Shown in pieces: positions 23,176-29,612 of a DNA stretch of 64,000 bases. Source of the stretch: Spirochaetales bacterium (lineage in GTDB: Bacteria; Spirochaetota; Leptospiria; Leptospirales; Leptonemataceae); contig JABTUL010000001.1 in NCBI GenBank assembly GCA_015075425.1, positions 868,001-932,000 on the forward strand, in the 5' to 3' direction. The translations under genes and the position numbers were made by a program. The notes beneath the pieces were generated by a model. It searched no databases. It was not told the origin of the DNA and saw only the letters and a list, made by a program, of their open reading frames with translations. Each line of letters begins with the position of its first letter. The first letter of the stretch is position 1.

Positions 23176-23655
23176 TCAGCCGAGCAGCGCTTCAATGGCT
23201 GAGGTCATTTCTGCGCCTTCCGGTTTGATCCGGGAACTGAAGCGGCGGACGGGTTTGCCCTCGCGATCGATCAAAAATTTTTCAAAGTTCCACTTGATTT
23301 CACCCGGATGCCCGGAGCCTTCCCCGGTCAGGTAAGCATACAGGGGGTGGGCCGTAGCTCCGTTGACATCGATTTTTTCAAAGAGGGGAAAAGAAACACC
23401 GTAGTTTAACTGGCAGAACGATTCGATTTCGTCCGCTGTGCCCGGTTCCTGGGATCCAAACTGGTTGCAGGGAAATCCCAGCACCACAAGGCCGCGGTCC
23501 CGGTATTTTTTCCAGATTTCTTCCAGGCCAGTGTACTGTGGGGTAAAGCCGCACTTTGATGCCACGTTGACCACCAGGCAGACCTTTCCTTTGAAGTCAG
23601 AAAGGTTTTGTTCTGATCCTTTCAGGGTGCGAACGCGGTGATCGTAAAAGCTCAT
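23176..23655 (-). CDS. Glutathione peroxidase family thiol peroxidase
   Basis: A 159-residue GPx-family protein without a signal peptide. The peroxidatic Cys35 is in NVASKCGFTP (Cys, not selenocysteine). FPCNQFGSQEPG has the Gln, and KWNFEKFL supplies Trp and Asn of the catalytic site. Bacterial members usually use thioredoxin and reduce H2O2 or lipid hydroperoxides. Its ATG overlaps the stop of the BMC trimer gene (TAATG), so it is translated with that gene. Whether it protects the microcompartment enzymes is an inference. Confidence 0.92.
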   Translation of the reverse strand: MSFYDHRVRTLKGSEQNLSDFKGKVCLVVNVASKCGFTPQYTGLEEIWKKYRDRGLVVLGFPCNQFGSQEPGTADEIESFCQLNYGVSFPLFEKIDVNGATAHPLYAYLTGEGSGHPGEIKWNFEKFLIDREGKPVRRFSSRIKPEGAEMTSAIEALLG

Positions 23656-24275
23656 TATTTTTTCAATGTATTGGCAGCAGCGCGAGCGGCTGCCGCGGCG
23701 GCATCAATGTTTGCTTCATCGCCGGAAAGAATGAGGCGGCCTGTAGCGCCCCAGGTGGTTACGAGATTGAGTCGGGTGTGGGCTGCTTTGAGCGCCTCAT
23801 TACAGATGAAAGCCATATAGGCGGCCGGCTCGCACTCCATGATGAGAATGGATTCACCGGACAGAACCTGATTGCCCGGTCCCAGGTTGGTCAGAGCGAT
23901 GGCATGGTCGCCTTCAATGCCCCGTAAGACTTTGTCCGTTAACATCTTGCAGGGTGTGCGATCACCTTCTGCAAGGCCCGTAGCGTCAAGGATTGCTTTG
24001 CCAGCAGCCAGCACTTCTCCCTGATCGGCATGATGGATTTCCAGCTGGCCAAACTGGCGTTCCGTGATTACCACGCCCAGACGAACTCTGGTGTTCTTCA
24101 GGGCCAGATCAATCATAACATGAATGTCCATGGCCGGAGCTATCTCTATATACATGGCAGCATCGTATTCACTGGGGTCGAAGGCGCGATTGTCCTTGGC
24201 TACATAGGATGCCAGTTGCGGTTGCAATTGATCCAGAAAAGAATAGGTTCTTAATTGATAGCCTGATCCAGCCAT
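23655..24275 (-). CDS. BMC-T trimer shell protein (CsoS1D-like)
   Basis: A 206-residue tandem BMC-domain protein. The N-terminus (LRTYSFLDQLQPQLASYVA) and the two repeats (AAMYIEIAPAMDIHVMIDLAL and ESILIMECEPAAYMAFICNEAL, each followed by a Gly-rich turn) match circularly permuted BMC-T proteins of the CsoS1D type, which form trimers that can stack and have a gated central pore. It would act as a facet tile in the microcompartment shell and possibly a metabolite gate. AAGGAG lies 7 bases upstream of the ATG. It is divergent from the rest of the shell genes and overlaps the downstream peroxidase gene. Confidence 0.92.
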   Translation of the reverse strand: MAGSGYQLRTYSFLDQLQPQLASYVAKDNRAFDPSEYDAAMYIEIAPAMDIHVMIDLALKNTRVRLGVVITERQFGQLEIHHADQGEVLAAGKAILDATGLAEGDRTPCKMLTDKVLRGIEGDHAIALTNLGPGNQVLSGESILIMECEPAAYMAFICNEALKAAHTRLNLVTTWGATGRLILSGDEANIDAAAAAARAAANTLKK

Positions 24276-24479: not shown

Positions 24480-24773
24480 ATGTCCGAGATATCTCAGGAT
24501 GCACTGGGGATGATTGAAACCAGAGGCTTTGCTGCTATGGTAGAAGCTGCTGATGCAATGGTAAAAGCAGCACGTGTGGAAATTGTTGGCTACGAAAAAA
24601 TTGGCGGAGGCTATGTAACCGCAGTGGTCCGCGGCGATGTTGCAGCAGTAAAGGCCGCGACAGATGCCGGAAGTAAGGCTGCTGCGCGTATCGGAGAGCT
24701 GGTGACTGTTCACGTGATCCCGCGTCCGCATGCCAGCGTAGACAAAGCTCTTCCTCTGGGTCGTCAGAAGTAA
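24480..24773 (+). CDS. BMC-H hexamer shell protein
   Basis: A 97-residue single BMC-domain protein of the PduA/EutM/CcmK type. It begins [20 protein letters not shown] and has the pore loop KIGGGY and the edge motif with Lys/Arg ([15 protein letters not shown]), ending [15 protein letters not shown]. Six copies form a flat hexagonal tile with a small pore, likely passing the phosphorylated sugar and cofactors. It is the only hexamer gene in the window and the first gene of the plus-strand operon. Confidence 0.97.
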
Positions 24774-24775
24774 GC

Positions 24776-25078
24776 ATGATTCTTGGCAGGGTTGTTGGCA
24801 ATGTTGTCAGCACCCACAAGGACGAAGGGCTGGCTGACCTGAAATTGCTCCTGGTGGAACGTGTTGAACTGGATGGCGGCAAAGGCGGCCAGGAACCTCT
24901 GGTAGCCATGGACGCCGTGGGTGCCGGTAAGGACGATGTCGTTCTGGTAGTTTCCGGTAGTTCTGCGCGCATGACAGCGCTGACTACTGGCAGACCCTGT
25001 GACGCTGTGGTTGCGGCCATTGTGGACCTGGTGGAAGTGCAGGGCAAAATTACGTATAACAAAAGTCAGGACGTATGA
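24776..25078 (+). CDS. BMC-P pentamer shell protein 1 (EutN/CcmL family)
   Basis: A 100-residue pentamer protein. It has the GRVVGNVVSTHK start, the LLLVERV strand, and ALTTGRPCDAVVAAIVDLVEV typical of EutN/CcmL. Five copies cap the vertices of the shell. Its stop overlaps the start of the second pentamer gene (ATGA). It is the first of four such genes in this locus. Residue 84 is Cys within TGRPCDA, which is not shared by the other three. Confidence 0.95.
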   Translation: MILGRVVGNVVSTHKDEGLADLKLLLVERVELDGGKGGQEPLVAMDAVGAGKDDVVLVVSGSSARMTALTTGRPCDAVVAAIVDLVEVQGKITYNKSQDV

Positions 25079-25398
25079 TCCAGGCAGAAGTCATTGGCAG
25101 CGTTGTCTGTGATCGCAAAACGGACTGGTATGTGGATCCGGTATTCTTGATCGTTCAGGAAATTACAAGTGAAGGAAAGAAAGTGGGTAAACCACTCATT
25201 GCCCTTGACCCGGTGGGAGCCCGTGGCGGTGAACGTGTTCTTGTAAGCCAGGGTTCCTCTGTCCGCCAGACGGAAGCGACGCGGGATCGGCCGGTGGATG
25301 CTCTGATTGCCGGCATTATCGATCAGGTAGCGCTCGGTGACAGGCTGGTCTATAATGAAGGACAGGCTTCGGGGCCCGGAAAAACTTTCTTTGAGTGA
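25075..25398 (+). CDS. BMC-P pentamer shell protein 2
   Basis: A 107-residue EutN/CcmL-family pentamer (MIQAEVIGSVVCDRK ... DALIAGIIDQVAL). It differs from the first copy by a Trp-Tyr insertion in the first loop (TDWYVDP) and a C-terminal tail ending GPGKTFFE that extends past the usual end. This tail might be a contact for cargo or another shell protein; that is an inference. It overlaps the first pentamer gene and is followed by the triosephosphate isomerase gene. Confidence 0.95.
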   Translation: MIQAEVIGSVVCDRKTDWYVDPVFLIVQEITSEGKKVGKPLIALDPVGARGGERVLVSQGSSVRQTEATRDRPVDALIAGIIDQVALGDRLVYNEGQASGPGKTFFE

Positions 25399-25419: not shown

Positions 25420-26178
25420 ATGCGTAAGAAAATCGCCGCCGGGAACTGGAAGATGTTTAAGACGCCACAGGAAACCAGAGAGTTCTTGCGTGCTATCAAA
25501 TCCCTCCCACCGCCTTCCTGCGAAGTAGTCATCGCTCCCACCTATTTGTGCCTGGACGCCGCTGTATCCGAATCGGCGGGCACTTTTGTGCAGATTGCCG
25601 CGCAAAATTGCTACAGTCAGAATCAGGGGGCCTTCACCGGGGAGATTTCCCCGGCACAGTTGCGGGCCAGTGGCGTAACCCATGTGATTCTCGGTCACAG
25701 TGAACGCAGGCATGTCTTTAAGGAAAGTGATCAAGATATCAATAAAAAATGCAACCTTGCCCTGAAAGAGGGGCTGCTTCCCATCTTCTGCGTGGGCGAA
25801 CAGCTGGCAGAAAGGAAGACCGGTCAGTTGCGTTCTGTGCTGGAAAAACAGATTCTCTACGGCCTGGAGGGCATTGATCTGCCTGCGGCGGACAAATTTG
25901 TGATCGCCTATGAACCGGTCTGGGCCATAGGTACCGGTGAGACGGCAACTCCGGAAGATGCACAGGAAGCTCATGCATTTCTTCGCGAGCTTATGGGTAG
26001 AACGGCCGGAGCAGATTTTGCTCAGAAGGTACGGATTCTTTATGGGGGTTCGGTCAAGCCCGGTAACACTGCCGCTCTCACGGCAAAACCTGACGTCGAT
26101 GGAGTTCTCGTCGGCGGCGCCTCGCTGGATGTAGATTCCTTTGGCCAGATCATAGCTGCGGTGCGGATTCAGGGATAG
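25420..26178 (+). CDS. tpiA: Triosephosphate isomerase within the BMC operon
   Basis: A 252-residue TIM with all catalytic residues: Asn9 and Lys11 (GNWKM), His93 (GHSERR), Glu165 (AYEPVWAIGTG), and the phosphate-binding LYGGSV. It interconverts glyceraldehyde-3-phosphate and DHAP. There is no N-terminal extension, so no recognisable encapsulation peptide. It sits between the pentamer genes and the aldehyde dehydrogenase gene with short gaps (21 and 3 bases), so it is part of the operon. It would take up the triose-phosphate released by the aldolase encoded downstream. Whether it is inside the shell, and whether it is the only TIM of the organism, is unknown. Confidence 0.95.
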   Translation: MRKKIAAGNWKMFKTPQETREFLRAIKSLPPPSCEVVIAPTYLCLDAAVSESAGTFVQIAAQNCYSQNQGAFTGEISPAQLRASGVTHVILGHSERRHVFKESDQDINKKCNLALKEGLLPIFCVGEQLAERKTGQLRSVLEKQILYGLEGIDLPAADKFVIAYEPVWAIGTGETATPEDAQEAHAFLRELMGRTAGADFAQKVRILYGGSVKPGNTAALTAKPDVDGVLVGGASLDVDSFGQIIAAVRIQG

Positions 26179-26181
26179 TTC

Positions 26182-27603
26182 ATGAATATTTCACAGGACC
26201 AGATAGCAACAATTGTCGATCAGGTGGTGCGGGAGATTCGCACTCGCGGGAGCGTTCCCCTGAAGGCGGGAAATGCAGGCGATGGGGTTTTTGGCACGGT
26301 GGATGAAGCGGTGCGCGCGGCTCGTAAAGCTTTTCACGAACTTCAGGAATGCAAGCTCACCAAACGAATCGAAATCATCGAAACAATCCGCCAGGTAATG
26401 CGCGACAATGTCAAGGATCTGGCGCGTATGGCCTTAGAAGAGTCGGGTCTTGGTCGGTATGAAGATAAAATCATCAAAAATTTAGTTGTTATCAATAAAA
26501 CCCCTGGTGTGGAGCATATGCAAACGCATGCCTTCACCAATGATTCCGGTCTGATTTTAATTGAAAGAGCGGCCTGGGGTGTAATTGGATCCATCACACC
26601 CACCACCAATCCCACAGAAACCATCATCAACAACGGAATCGGTTTCATCGCCGCCGGCAACACCGGCGTTTTCAATCCCCATCCCGGGGCAAAAGGTGTT
26701 TCCGCGCACTGCATCCGGCTGATCAATCAAGCCTCCATCAGTGCCGGCGGCCCGGCGAACATCCTCACGGCTGTAGGTACGCCCACTATCGACTCCGCCG
26801 GGGCCCTCATGAAGCATACGGATATTGATATGATTGTGGTGACCGGTGGCCCGGGCGTGGTCAAGGCCGCTTTTTCATCCGGAAAAAAGGTGATTTGCGG
26901 CGGGCCGGGAAATCCGCCCAGCGTTGTTGATCCCACAGCCAACATCGAAAAGGCTGCCCGTGATATTGTAAACGGACATTCTTTTGATAACAATATTATC
27001 TGTACCGATGAAAAAGAAGTGATCGTCGTGGACAGTGTTGCGGACCGCCTCATTGAAGCCATGCGTGCCAGCGGTGCCTATATGATTAACAAGACGCAGG
27101 CAGATCGTTTGACCGGCATCGTTCTCAGCGATAAAGGCAAACCGGGCTGCGGCGGACACGCCAATAAAGACTTTGTCGGTAAAAATGCCAGCGTGCTGCT
27201 GCGCGAAATCGGCATCAATATCCATGACGATGTCCGTTGCATCATCGCTGATGTTGACAACGATCACCCCATGGTCTGGACAGAGCAGCTCATGCCATTT
27301 TTGCCTATTACGCGGGTTGCGGACGTCCATAAAGCCATCGATCTTGCTGTGCGGGCAGAGCAACGCTGCAATCATACCGCTTCGATGCATTCCCATGACG
27401 TTGAATATCTTTCCAAAATGGCCCGCGCTTTTCAGGGATCGATCTTTGTGAAGAACGCTCCGCACTACGCCGGTCTCGGGGAGGGTGGCCCGGGTTACAC
27501 TTCCTTTACGATTGCGTCACCCACAGGCGATGGACTGACCACCTGCCTCACATTTTCGCGGGAGCGGCGTTGTTGCCTGGTTGATTATTTCCGGATTGTG
27601 TAG
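26182..27603 (+). CDS. CoA-acylating aldehyde dehydrogenase with encapsulation peptide (PduP/EutE-like)
   Basis: A 473-residue aldehyde dehydrogenase that would convert acetaldehyde, CoA and NAD+ to acetyl-CoA and NADH in the microcompartment. The nucleophile is Cys274 in NNIICTDEK, and GSITPTTNPTET and VTGGPGVV are cofactor-region motifs of this family. Residues 1-20 (MNISQDQIATIVDQVVREIR) form an amphipathic helix typical of encapsulation peptides, followed by a flexible linker. The same MNIS opening is found in the RpiB-like protein. Its C-terminus is complete. The next pentamer gene starts one base after its stop. Confidence 0.95.
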   Translation: MNISQDQIATIVDQVVREIRTRGSVPLKAGNAGDGVFGTVDEAVRAARKAFHELQECKLTKRIEIIETIRQVMRDNVKDLARMALEESGLGRYEDKIIKNLVVINKTPGVEHMQTHAFTNDSGLILIERAAWGVIGSITPTTNPTETIINNGIGFIAAGNTGVFNPHPGAKGVSAHCIRLINQASISAGGPANILTAVGTPTIDSAGALMKHTDIDMIVVTGGPGVVKAAFSSGKKVICGGPGNPPSVVDPTANIEKAARDIVNGHSFDNNIICTDEKEVIVVDSVADRLIEAMRASGAYMINKTQADRLTGIVLSDKGKPGCGGHANKDFVGKNASVLLREIGINIHDDVRCIIADVDNDHPMVWTEQLMPFLPITRVADVHKAIDLAVRAEQRCNHTASMHSHDVEYLSKMARAFQGSIFVKNAPHYAGLGEGGPGYTSFTIASPTGDGLTTCLTFSRERRCCLVDYFRIV

Positions 27604-27604
27604 C

Positions 27605-27880
27605 ATGAACTTTGCACGGGTAAAGGGAACGGTCGTCTCAACGGTAAAGCTCGAATGTTTTGCCGGGGAGAAGTTGCTGGTTCTGCAGCCCGTAGATGAA
27701 AAGGGAAAAGAGGTGGGCCAGGAGCTCGTGGCCACAGACATTACCCGGGCTGGAGTGGGTGATCTGGTTTTTTATGAGACAGGTCGTGAGGCGGCTATCG
27801 CCCTTGAGAATACATTTAACGTATCGGATGCCACCGTCATGGCTATTGTCGATTCCGTTCATCGGGAGGGCAAAAAATGA
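27605..27880 (+). CDS. BMC-P pentamer shell protein 3
   Basis: A 91-residue EutN/CcmL pentamer (FARVKGTVVSTVK ... ATVMAIVDSVH). It starts at ATG 27605, one base after the aldehyde dehydrogenase stop; a codon at 27581 lies inside that gene. It has an Asp-Lys-Gly loop (DEKGKEVGQ) in common with pentamer 2. The mid-region (FYETGREAAIALENTF) is less conserved than in the others. It overlaps pentamer 4 by ATGA. Confidence 0.95.
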   Translation: MNFARVKGTVVSTVKLECFAGEKLLVLQPVDEKGKEVGQELVATDITRAGVGDLVFYETGREAAIALENTFNVSDATVMAIVDSVHREGKK

Positions 27881-28152
27881 AACTGGCCAGGATCGCTGGA
27901 AATGTGGTTGCGACGATCAAGCATCCCGTTTACGATCAGGCCCGGCTGCTTCTCGCTGAACCGGTTACCACAGCGGGGAAGGTGTCGGGCAATGCATTCA
28001 TCCTGGTGGATACGGTGCAGGCCGGGCCCGGTGACGTTGTCATCTACGTCGATGAGGGGAATTCCGCGCGCACGGTGTTGAAAGATATGCAGGCGCCGGT
28101 GCGCGCCGTTGCTGTTGGAATCGTTGATGCTATCGACAGGGATAAGGCGTGA
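27877..28152 (+). CDS. BMC-P pentamer shell protein 4
   Basis: A 91-residue EutN/CcmL pentamer (KLARIAGNVVATIKHPVYD ... VAVGIVDAIDR). It overlaps pentamer 3 at its start and the RpiB-like gene at its end (GTGA), so three genes are likely translationally coupled. With four pentamer genes and only one hexamer gene, some may form mixed pentamers or serve different vertices. Confidence 0.95.
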   Translation: MKLARIAGNVVATIKHPVYDQARLLLAEPVTTAGKVSGNAFILVDTVQAGPGDVVIYVDEGNSARTVLKDMQAPVRAVAVGIVDAIDRDKA

Positions 28153-28730
28153 ATATTTCCGAACCGGAAGTCAGGGCAATCGTTGCCCACGTGCTGGCCC
28201 GAATGAGTGCAGCGGAAGAAAGCGGCGGAAGTCCTGATTCAGTTGCATCTCCGGGAAAAACCGTAGTTATTGGAGCCGATCATGGCGGGTTCGCCCTCAA
28301 GGAATCGCTGCGCGAATACTTGAGAAATATTGGCTATCAGGTCATGGATGCCGGTACCTATTCAGCCGATGCTGTTGACTATCCGGATTACGCACTGGCC
28401 GTGGCCCGTAAAGTGGCGTCAGGTGCTGCCGCCCGGGGAATTATGCTCGATGGGGCCGGTATCGGTTCCTGCATGGTGGCCAACAAAGTCAAGGGGGTGC
28501 GTGCCGCTCTTTGCTACAATGAAAAAACCATTCTCAATTCCCGGCTGCACAACAATGCGAATCTCTTGACGCTGGGGGCACCATTTCATCGGCCCGAAGA
28601 AGCACAATCTCTGGTCAAGCTCTTTCTCGAAACAGAGTTTGAAGGAGGAAGACACCAGAAGAGGGTGGATAAAATCAATGCGCTGGATGACTGCCAGTGC
28701 CAGAAAAGCAGTTGCTCCTGCACCACTTAA
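28149..28730 (+). CDS. RpiB-like sugar-phosphate isomerase with encapsulation peptide
   Basis: A 193-residue protein. Residues 1-20 (MNISEPEVRAIVAHVLARMS) resemble the aldehyde dehydrogenase encapsulation peptide. The RpiB domain begins at about 38 (VVIGADHGGF). His134 (SRLHNNAN) and GGRHQKRV match E. coli RpiB. At the catalytic Cys of E. coli RpiB (ICGTG) it has Asp101 in LDGAG, and the Thr is Ala, so mechanism or substrate may differ from ribose-5-phosphate. The C-terminal tail is Cys-rich (Cys182, 184, 189, 191). The start is GTG overlapping pentamer 4. Confidence 0.9.
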   Translation: MNISEPEVRAIVAHVLARMSAAEESGGSPDSVASPGKTVVIGADHGGFALKESLREYLRNIGYQVMDAGTYSADAVDYPDYALAVARKVASGAAARGIMLDGAGIGSCMVANKVKGVRAALCYNEKTILNSRLHNNANLLTLGAPFHRPEEAQSLVKLFLETEFEGGRHQKRVDKINALDDCQCQKSSCSCTT

Positions 28731-28745
28731 TTGTAAGGAATATTT

Positions 28746-29612
28746 ATGGAACAATCAAAAGCTATTGAACTTATTACCAGACAGGTCATGGAAAAACTCG
28801 GAGAAGGTGGGGACCTGAAAACTACCGGAGGCTGCAGCAGCGAAGGATGTCCCCCCGCCTGGGATGGTGTGGGTACGGTAACGGCCATGTTGACCGCGGG
28901 GGCCAGCCGGATTTCAGCAATTGCTCCCCTGGGAAGCTGCCCGGACAAGACGCTGGCCCGGCTTATCGACCACACGATGCTCAAGCCAGAGGCGACAGAA
29001 CAGGAAGTGCGCCAGCTCTGCGCCGAAGCGCGGGCCAACTGTTTCATGAGTGTGTGTGTCAATCCCACATGGATCAGCCTCTGTCAGCAGCTTTTGCGCG
29101 GCAGCGGCGTAAAGGTGTGCACGGTCATTGGCTTTCCTCTGGGTGCGAGTTCCACGCGTGTAAAAGAATTTGAGACCAGGGTGGCCATTGAAGATGGCGC
29201 CGATGAGGTCGATATGGTGATCAATGTGGGTGCCCTCAAATCCGGGAACTGGAAGGATGTGGCCCGCGATGTTCAGGCCGTGGTGCGTTCCACACGCGGA
29301 AATGTCATCAGCAAAGTGATCCTTGAGACCTGTCTTTTGACCCCTGCTGAGATCAAACGTGCTTCAGAAATTTGTCGGGATGCCGGTGCCCATTTTGTAA
29401 AGACCAGCACCGGTTTCAACAAAGGCGGCGCAACCGTTGAGGCCATTCGGATCATGAGGGAGACGGTGGGTCCGGAACTTGGTGTTAAAGCCTCCGGTGG
29501 AATTCGTGATCACGAGACAGCTTTGAATATGGTTGCCGCAGGGGCTTCCCGGATCGGGGCCAGCGCTTCGGTTGCTATTGTCAATTGTCAAGCGAGCAAC
29601 GCAACCTATTGA
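28746..29612 (+). CDS. deoC: Deoxyribose-phosphate aldolase with encapsulation peptide
   Basis: A 288-residue DERA that would split 2-deoxyribose-5-phosphate into glyceraldehyde-3-phosphate and acetaldehyde. The Schiff-base Lys219 is in FVKTSTGF, the second Lys248 in GVKASGGIR, and Asp156 in DEVDMVIN. Residues 1-20 (EQSKAIELITRQVMEKLG) look like an encapsulation helix, followed by a Gly/Cys-rich linker (GGCSSEGCPP). The catalytic domain starts at about residue 67. A DUF4105 gene starts at its stop codon. The acetaldehyde product is the substrate of the aldehyde dehydrogenase in this operon. Confidence 0.95.
   Translation: MEQSKAIELITRQVMEKLGEGGDLKTTGGCSSEGCPPAWDGVGTVTAMLTAGASRISAIAPLGSCPDKTLARLIDHTMLKPEATEQEVRQLCAEARANCFMSVCVNPTWISLCQQLLRGSGVKVCTVIGFPLGASSTRVKEFETRVAIEDGADEVDMVINVGALKSGNWKDVARDVQAVVRSTRGNVISKVILETCLLTPAEIKRASEICRDAGAHFVKTSTGFNKGGATVEAIRIMRETVGPELGVKASGGIRDHETALNMVAAGASRIGASASVAIVNCQASNATY

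Follow-up and report, generated by a model that had tools for sequence, protein, structure and literature searches.

Can a member of the RpiB/LacAB family that lacks the catalytic cysteine of ribose-5-phosphate isomerase still be an isomerase, and what would it do inside a bacterial microcompartment? The question is raised by a gene at positions 28149-28730 (+ strand) of a 64,000-nucleotide stretch (hereafter, the window) from the genome of a Spirochaetales bacterium (GCA_015075425.1, contig JABTUL010000001.1, positions 868,001 to 932,000 of the forward strand). The gene lies among shell protein genes, next to the gene for the deoxyribose-phosphate aldolase DeoC, in an operon for a sugar phosphate utilising (SPU) microcompartment. 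We find that an aspartate, Asp101, occupies the place of the catalytic Cys66 of Escherichia coli RpiB, and that the proteins with this residue, which we call Asp-types, share further active-site residues and, in two samples not chosen for the trait, adjoin DeoC and shell genes throughout. The reading that we favour overall, giving it about an even chance on the sequence-based evidence, is an encapsulated phosphopentose enzyme with Asp101 as the base, which would belong to a DeoC-partnered subfamily of SPU cargo and would probably still be an isomerase.

Aspartate at the catalytic cysteine position

The gene and the codons of interest are as follows.

28149..28730, + strand: Asp-type RpiB/LacAB-family enzyme, the main subject (GTG start, 193 aa; PF02502 177 bits; TIGR01120 rpiB 157.5 bits; motif LDGAGIGS)
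28449..28451, + strand: codon gat of Asp101, at the place of the E. coli catalytic Cys66 in the sequence and structure alignments
28455..28457, + strand: codon of Ala103, where E. coli has the proton-relay residue Thr68
28467..28469, + strand: codon of Ser107, invariant across the Asp-type subfamily; the place of the Glu of the mycobacterial type
28536..28538, + strand: codon of Asn130, one helix turn ahead of His134; Met, Leu or Tyr in Cys-types
28548..28550, + strand: codon of His134, the retained ring-opening His, equivalent to E. coli His99
28149..28217, + strand: N-terminal amphipathic helix, likely an encapsulation peptide (predicted helix at residues 5-23; resembles the N-terminus of the operon's aldehyde dehydrogenase, MNISQDQIATIVDQVVREI)

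The translation contains GIMLDGAGIGSCMVANKVKGVRAALC, then RLHNNANLL and GGRHQKRVDKI; its active-site loop is LDGAGIGSCMVANK, and the corresponding stretch of E. coli K-12 RpiB (NC_000913, b4090) is GILICGTGVGISIAANK. The protein belongs to the RpiB/LacAB family by both profile and fold, scoring above the cut-offs of PF02502 (24.7 bits) and of TIGR01120 rpiB (138.65 bits). Since the NCBIfam rpiB model accepts it, automatic annotation will label the Asp-type as RpiB.

An earlier note on this DNA had claimed that the motif reads LDGAG instead of the ICGTG of E. coli RpiB, with Asp101 for the Cys and Ala for the following Thr, and that His134 and the GGRHQKRV region are kept. The ungapped sequence alignment pairs Asp101 with Cys66 and Ala103 with Thr68, and both His134 and the GGRHQKRV region are indeed retained. 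A structure-based alignment, which might have moved the Asp away from the base position, places it there: residues 36-182 of the predicted structure (AlphaFold monomer, mean pLDDT 91) superpose on residues 1-147 of E. coli RpiB (2vvr_A), i.e., over 147 residues with a constant offset of 35. Superpositions on 2vvr_A, 3he8_A and other RpiB structures gave root-mean-square deviations of 0.9-1.1 A, Z scores of 25-27 and constant residue offsets, and Asp101 closes the same strand of the model as in the RpiB structures. In the model, the helix at residues 5-23 is followed by a low-confidence, flexible linker to about residue 36, and then by the RpiB fold. Compared with a canonical RpiB, the protein has neither the catalytic Cys (Asp101) nor the Thr/Ser relay (Ala103), and it has equivalents of His99, His10, Arg133 and Arg137 in His134, His45, Arg168 and Arg172.

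The Asp-type subfamily

A search at one genome per species yielded 80 loci; with the PF02502 matches in 100 related genomes, the combined collection comprised 88 Asp-type proteins (LacA not counted) and 83 Cys-type proteins. Residues were compared against 67 canonical Cys-types. Position 101 is Asp in all 88 Asp-types and Cys in all 67 Cys-types, a contrast well beyond chance, and position 107 is Ser in 88/88 Asp-types versus Ala, Ile, Val or Met in the Cys-types. Two further positions vary along with these: Ala103 is found in 83 of the 88 Asp-types (Thr or Ser in 67/67 Cys-types), and Asn130 in 81 (Met, Leu or Tyr in Cys-types). The fifth is the place of E. coli Arg110, which is Arg in 67/67 Cys-types and mixed, mostly Gly, in Asp-types, with Pro145 in our protein. 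Common to both types are Asp44, His45, Asp77, Tyr78, Pro79, His134, Asn135, Arg168, His169 and Arg172.

The Asp-type rows form one group in the tree. When the trait columns were removed, the best tree with all Asp rows together had the higher likelihood (p-AU 0.90), and thus a single origin of the Asp-types is not rejected; LacA, whose Asp may or may not share its origin with that of the Asp-types, is placed at the end of a very long branch. We regard it as practically certain that the Asp-types are a real subfamily. That the Asp arose by an error in sequencing or assembly, or as an isolated mutation, is refuted by its presence in 88 independent loci from several phyla, and the probability of such an origin is vanishingly small.

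Some members depart from the common pattern. Five atypical Asp-types (L062, L081, L066, L070 and L044) keep Thr or have Leu or Met at position 103 (DGTGIAS, DSLGMAS, DTMGIGS); functionally, they may be intermediates. At L009, L028, L036, L047, L120 and many Acidobacteria loci, the short helix is replaced by another N-terminal module, roughly VITxxDVPxxGxLxVxxGxIVTPxARxxAxERGIxI, which may be another type of domain for targeting or assembly. In seven relatives (G001, G002, G005, G013, G016, G017 and G021), the loci L167-L173 encode divergent members of the RpiB family that read CWTGTG or CYTGTG and have Trp instead of the ring-opening His.

Association with DeoC and shell genes

Membership of the family, not the Asp trait, was the basis for two samples: relatives of the window genome, and genomes picked evenly across the phylum to which a second genome belongs (Anaerolineae in the source record), with the genome at the centre of this draw left out of the neighbourhood counts. 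Among the relatives of the window genome, 9/9 Asp-types adjoin DeoC and shell genes versus 0/79 Cys-types, a count that is weakened by the short flanks of about 34 of the 79 (for 36, the flanks reached 4 kb in both directions). The second sample gave 7/7 Asp-types versus none of the 83 Cys-types and none of the six Glu-types. Pooled, the difference is 16/16 versus 0/168 (Fisher p 2e-23, not corrected for kinship). Over all loci, DeoC is directly downstream of the Asp-type at 76, upstream at one, fused at three and absent from the fetched stretch at eight. The natural RpiB-DeoC fusions (L054, L058 and L073) have the RpiB part at the N-terminus. In two genomes (L187:763-2154 and L188), the microcompartment DeoC is itself joined to a further domain with a weak likeness to flavoproteins (PF02441, not reaching the cut-off, in part only narrowly) and adjoins a pentamer shell gene.

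A free-standing, non-microcompartment form in Acidobacteria was considered and rejected, as those genomes carry pentamer shell genes elsewhere: this was found for 23 of the 24 genomes, mostly Acidobacteria, in which the Asp-type is distant from shell genes, versus two of 14 controls. Nor was the idea upheld that Asp-types without an adjacent DeoC point to another pathway. DeoC is encoded elsewhere in 6/7 such genomes, in two cases adjoining a pentamer gene, although this is weak because DeoC is common in the controls. We conclude with great confidence that the Asp-type is microcompartment cargo acting with DeoC.

The operon in the window

The neighbours of the gene are listed below.

28746..29612, + strand: DeoC, deoxyribose-phosphate aldolase, with an N-terminal peptide (TIGR00126 292 bits; lysine motifs KTSTGF and KASGG)
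26182..27603, + strand: CoA-acylating aldehyde dehydrogenase of the EutE/PduP type (NF011927 648 bits)
25420..26178, + strand: triosephosphate isomerase (PF00121 297 bits; sole match in the genome)
24480..24773, + strand: BMC-H shell protein (PF00936)
24776..25078, + strand: BMC-P shell pentamer protein (EutN/CcmL family models, E 1e-23)
25075..25398, + strand: BMC-P shell pentamer protein (PF03319)
27581..27880, + strand: BMC-P shell pentamer protein, start uncertain (PF03319)
27877..28152, + strand: BMC-P shell pentamer protein, with a 4-base overlap with the RpiB start (PF03319)
23655..24275, - strand: probable BMC-T shell protein, divergent (PF00936 24.4 bits, slightly below the cut-off; relatives in most SPU loci)

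The order in this compact operon is BMC-H, two BMC-P, triosephosphate isomerase, aldehyde dehydrogenase, two BMC-P, the Asp-type RpiB as the penultimate gene, and DeoC. The locus is an SPU microcompartment operon, of a known kind: it has DeoC (pfam01791), the pfam02502 enzyme, the aldehyde dehydrogenase and shell genes, and by the definition of Axen 2014 and Sutter 2021 (PMC4207490, PMC8217296), the SPU types share the pfam01791 and pfam02502 pair. The N-termini of RpiB, the aldehyde dehydrogenase and DeoC look like encapsulation peptides in their sequences. No PduL phosphotransacylase (PF06130), a part of the complete metabolosome core, was found in the genome; this is compatible with SPU membership, since a Marinimicrobia SPU locus is likewise described without PduL (PMC4207490).

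The genome has two matches to the PNP family of nucleoside phosphorylases and no DeoB match over the cut-off, a gap that concerns the supply of deoxyribose-5-phosphate, as the missing PduL concerns the exit of acetyl-CoA. The operon's triosephosphate isomerase is the only one found in the 4.13 Mb genome (96% complete) and has no obvious targeting peptide; a glycolytic housekeeping gene therefore appears to be housed in an organelle operon.

Housekeeping isomerases in the same genomes

In the window genome, the gene is the single PF02502 member, and RpiA is encoded elsewhere. Among ten Asp-type genomes near the window, RpiA is present in two (the window genome included) and a separate Cys-type RpiB in six, so that 8/10 have a canonical isomerase; in the second sample, a Cys-type is also present in six of the eight Asp-type genomes. 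Because RpiA or a Cys-type RpiB is found in most carrier genomes, the Asp-type usually coexists with a canonical ribose-5-phosphate isomerase, and it is very probably not the housekeeping one. The lack of a DeoB match over the cut-off in the window genome suggested that the enzyme might substitute for phosphopentomutase. We rejected this idea as a general one because there are DeoB-family matches in 6/10 Asp-type genomes, and two Asp-type loci contain or adjoin a DeoB-like gene.

Comparison with known enzymes

With RpiB (E. coli b4090, PDB 2vvr; Clostridium thermocellum, 3he8), the protein shares the fold, 39-44% identity, the ring-opening His, the Arg/His phosphate site and the anion-hole glycines. 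It differs from E. coli RpiB by Cys66 to Asp, Thr68 to Ala, Ile72 to Ser, Leu95 to Asn and Arg110 to Pro, by its N-terminal targeting-like helix, and by the tie to DeoC and shell genes.

The mycobacterial-type RpiB (PDB 2bes, 1usl) is alike in family and fold and in using a carboxylate instead of the Cys base. The base there is Glu75 (PMC4783025), at a different position, as the earlier note had stated: in the Glu-type relatives, the Cys66 place is taken by Gly and position 107 by Glu, whereas our protein has Asp101 and Ser107. True Glu-types (GGSGTGE) are present in the second sample.

Asp at the Cys66 place is seen, too, in the LacA subunit of galactose-6-phosphate isomerase, which is 40% identical to our protein in the aligned region. 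However, LacA has no equivalents of His45, Tyr78, Pro79, Asn112 and Arg118, and it functions only with LacB. Our protein scored 126.9 bits against the curated LacA cut-off of 164, and a LacA-LacB-like heteromer was rejected, as the genome has no second PF02502 member that could be the LacB partner. Met92 of LacA lines the sugar pocket in the LacAB structure (PMC3755991) and aligns with Asn130, which argues that at least part of the co-varying residue set touches the substrate.

The SPU microcompartments of Axen 2014 and Sutter 2021 share with the window DeoC, an RpiB-like protein, the aldehyde dehydrogenase and the BMC-H/T/P shell, and the operon layout shows no difference. Triosephosphate isomerase is also mentioned for an Atribacteria SPU locus (PMC4207490). 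The SPU papers call the pfam02502 enzyme a ribose-5-phosphate-isomerising RpiB, and their passages on it do not mention the missing Cys.

Proposed mechanism and alternative explanations

In the RpiB mechanism (PMC4783025), the His99 equivalent protonates the ring oxygen; proton transfer between the carbons C2 and C1 falls to Cys66, and the relay between the oxygens O2 and O1 to the Thr68 equivalent. We propose that the Asp-type enzyme would pair with itself as a homodimer, since the window genome encodes no other member of the family. A pentofuranose 5-phosphate would be bound by Arg168, Arg172 and His45, and the ring opened by His134. In place of Cys66, Asp101 would be the base for proton transfer between C1 and C2, in a pocket reshaped by Ser107 and Asn130. 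The net reaction would most likely be an aldose-ketose isomerisation, its substrate being a pentose phosphate supplied together with deoxyribose-5-phosphate when nucleic acids are broken down, and it would run beside DeoC, which gives glyceraldehyde-3-phosphate and acetaldehyde, and the CoA-acylating dehydrogenase.

As a carboxylate at the Cys place, Asp101 is chemically able to act as the base, and Glu75 of the mycobacterial enzyme gives a carboxylate base family precedent (PMC4783025). That Asp101 is the base appears reasonably probable, and isomerase chemistry slightly better than an even bet; ribose-5-phosphate as the main substrate is doubtful. It may be, although this is speculation, that a carboxylate base suits an aldehyde-rich lumen in which a reactive thiolate would be poisoned. 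Of the separate isomerase subgroup with another phosphosugar substrate proposed in the earlier note, the subgroup stands, given one group with five co-varying active-site positions and the tie to DeoC and the microcompartment; isomerase chemistry and the other substrate can be put forward only conditionally. The note made no mention of the Asp of LacA, or of the presence of the change throughout this microcompartment type.

Several observations weigh against this proposal. The Asp of LacA lies in a non-catalytic half-site (PMC3755991). In our protein, the phosphate Arg contributed by the partner subunit (E. coli Arg110, Mycobacterium tuberculosis Arg113) is replaced by Pro145, and the O1/O2 proton relay Thr68 is gone. 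Two carrier genomes, G070 and G080, have no complete second isomerase (only a family fragment in one, none found in the other). There is no evident reason to encapsulate a ribose-5-phosphate isomerase or to tie one so strictly to DeoC, and the substrate of DeoC has no 2-OH, so that its aldose-ketose isomerisation is impossible.

The last point leads to the rival that we take most seriously, unlikely as it seems, because the replaced residues are the enediol-step pair and the DeoC substrate lacks the 2-OH: the enediol step may have been lost, and the enzyme may open the ring of deoxyribose-5-phosphate and pass the open-chain aldehyde to DeoC. His134 would protonate the ring oxygen and Asp101 deprotonate O1, an acid-base pair as in mutarotases. 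The Asp-type would then be no isomerase, but a dedicated ring opener feeding DeoC inside the microcompartment, which seems rather improbable. It is precisely Cys66 and Thr68, the pair behind the enediol step, that are replaced; the residues for ring opening and most of those for phosphate binding are retained, and DeoC is the constant partner, fused three times. The step is not known to need an enzyme, and none of the family members characterised so far acts purely as a mutarotase. In addition, the enediolate-stabilising glycines and Asn135, needless for ring opening alone, are retained. In solution, 99.8% of deoxyribose-5-phosphate is furanose, whereas DeoC requires the aldehyde, but the published rates suggest that spontaneous opening is already fast enough (PMC5975929). 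This could differ in the lumen, where enzyme may exceed substrate.

If, on the other hand, Asp merely substituted for Cys with the role unchanged, the protein would be an ordinary ribose-5-phosphate isomerase in the microcompartment, as in the SPU literature. It passes the curated cut-off of TIGR01120 rpiB, and it has been proposed that SPU loci serve the use of products of nucleic-acid breakdown (PMC8217296). We find this quite unlikely: five pocket positions are altered together, most carrier genomes already have RpiA or a Cys-type RpiB, and the trypanosomatid RpiB is inactive or strongly impaired in the C69S, C69A and H102N mutants, with C69S or C69A inactivating it (PMC4783025). Still less credible is a catalytically silent scaffold or regulatory partner of DeoC, akin to the non-catalytic half-site of LacA, in which Asp occupies the equivalent position and which is unoccupied in the LacAB structure (PMC3755991). 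In the Asp-types, Asp44, His45, Asp77, Tyr78, His134, Arg168 and Arg172 hardly vary, whereas His45, Tyr78, Pro79, Asn112 and Arg118 have been lost from LacA; the otherwise intact site and the lack of a LacB-like partner, with one PF02502 gene in the genome, make such a scaffold less likely.

Implications

The RpiB/LacAB family and its fold, the SPU organelle and the presence of triosephosphate isomerase in an SPU locus were already known. We found no literature account that treats the SPU signature enzyme as an active-site class of its own, lacking the RpiB Cys, in a search that had most subscription journals outside its reach. The usual label, ribose-5-phosphate isomerase, is doubtful because Asp replaces the essential Cys in every copy examined. 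If the microcompartment RpiB lacks the catalytic base in every copy, half of the accepted reading of the pathway rests on an unproven assignment. The sequence mark D-x-A-G-I-G-S together with Asn130 singles out the DeoC-linked enzymes. Beside Cys66 and the mycobacterial Glu75, Asp would be a third type of base, and thus possibly a third solution for this role in a textbook isomerase family.
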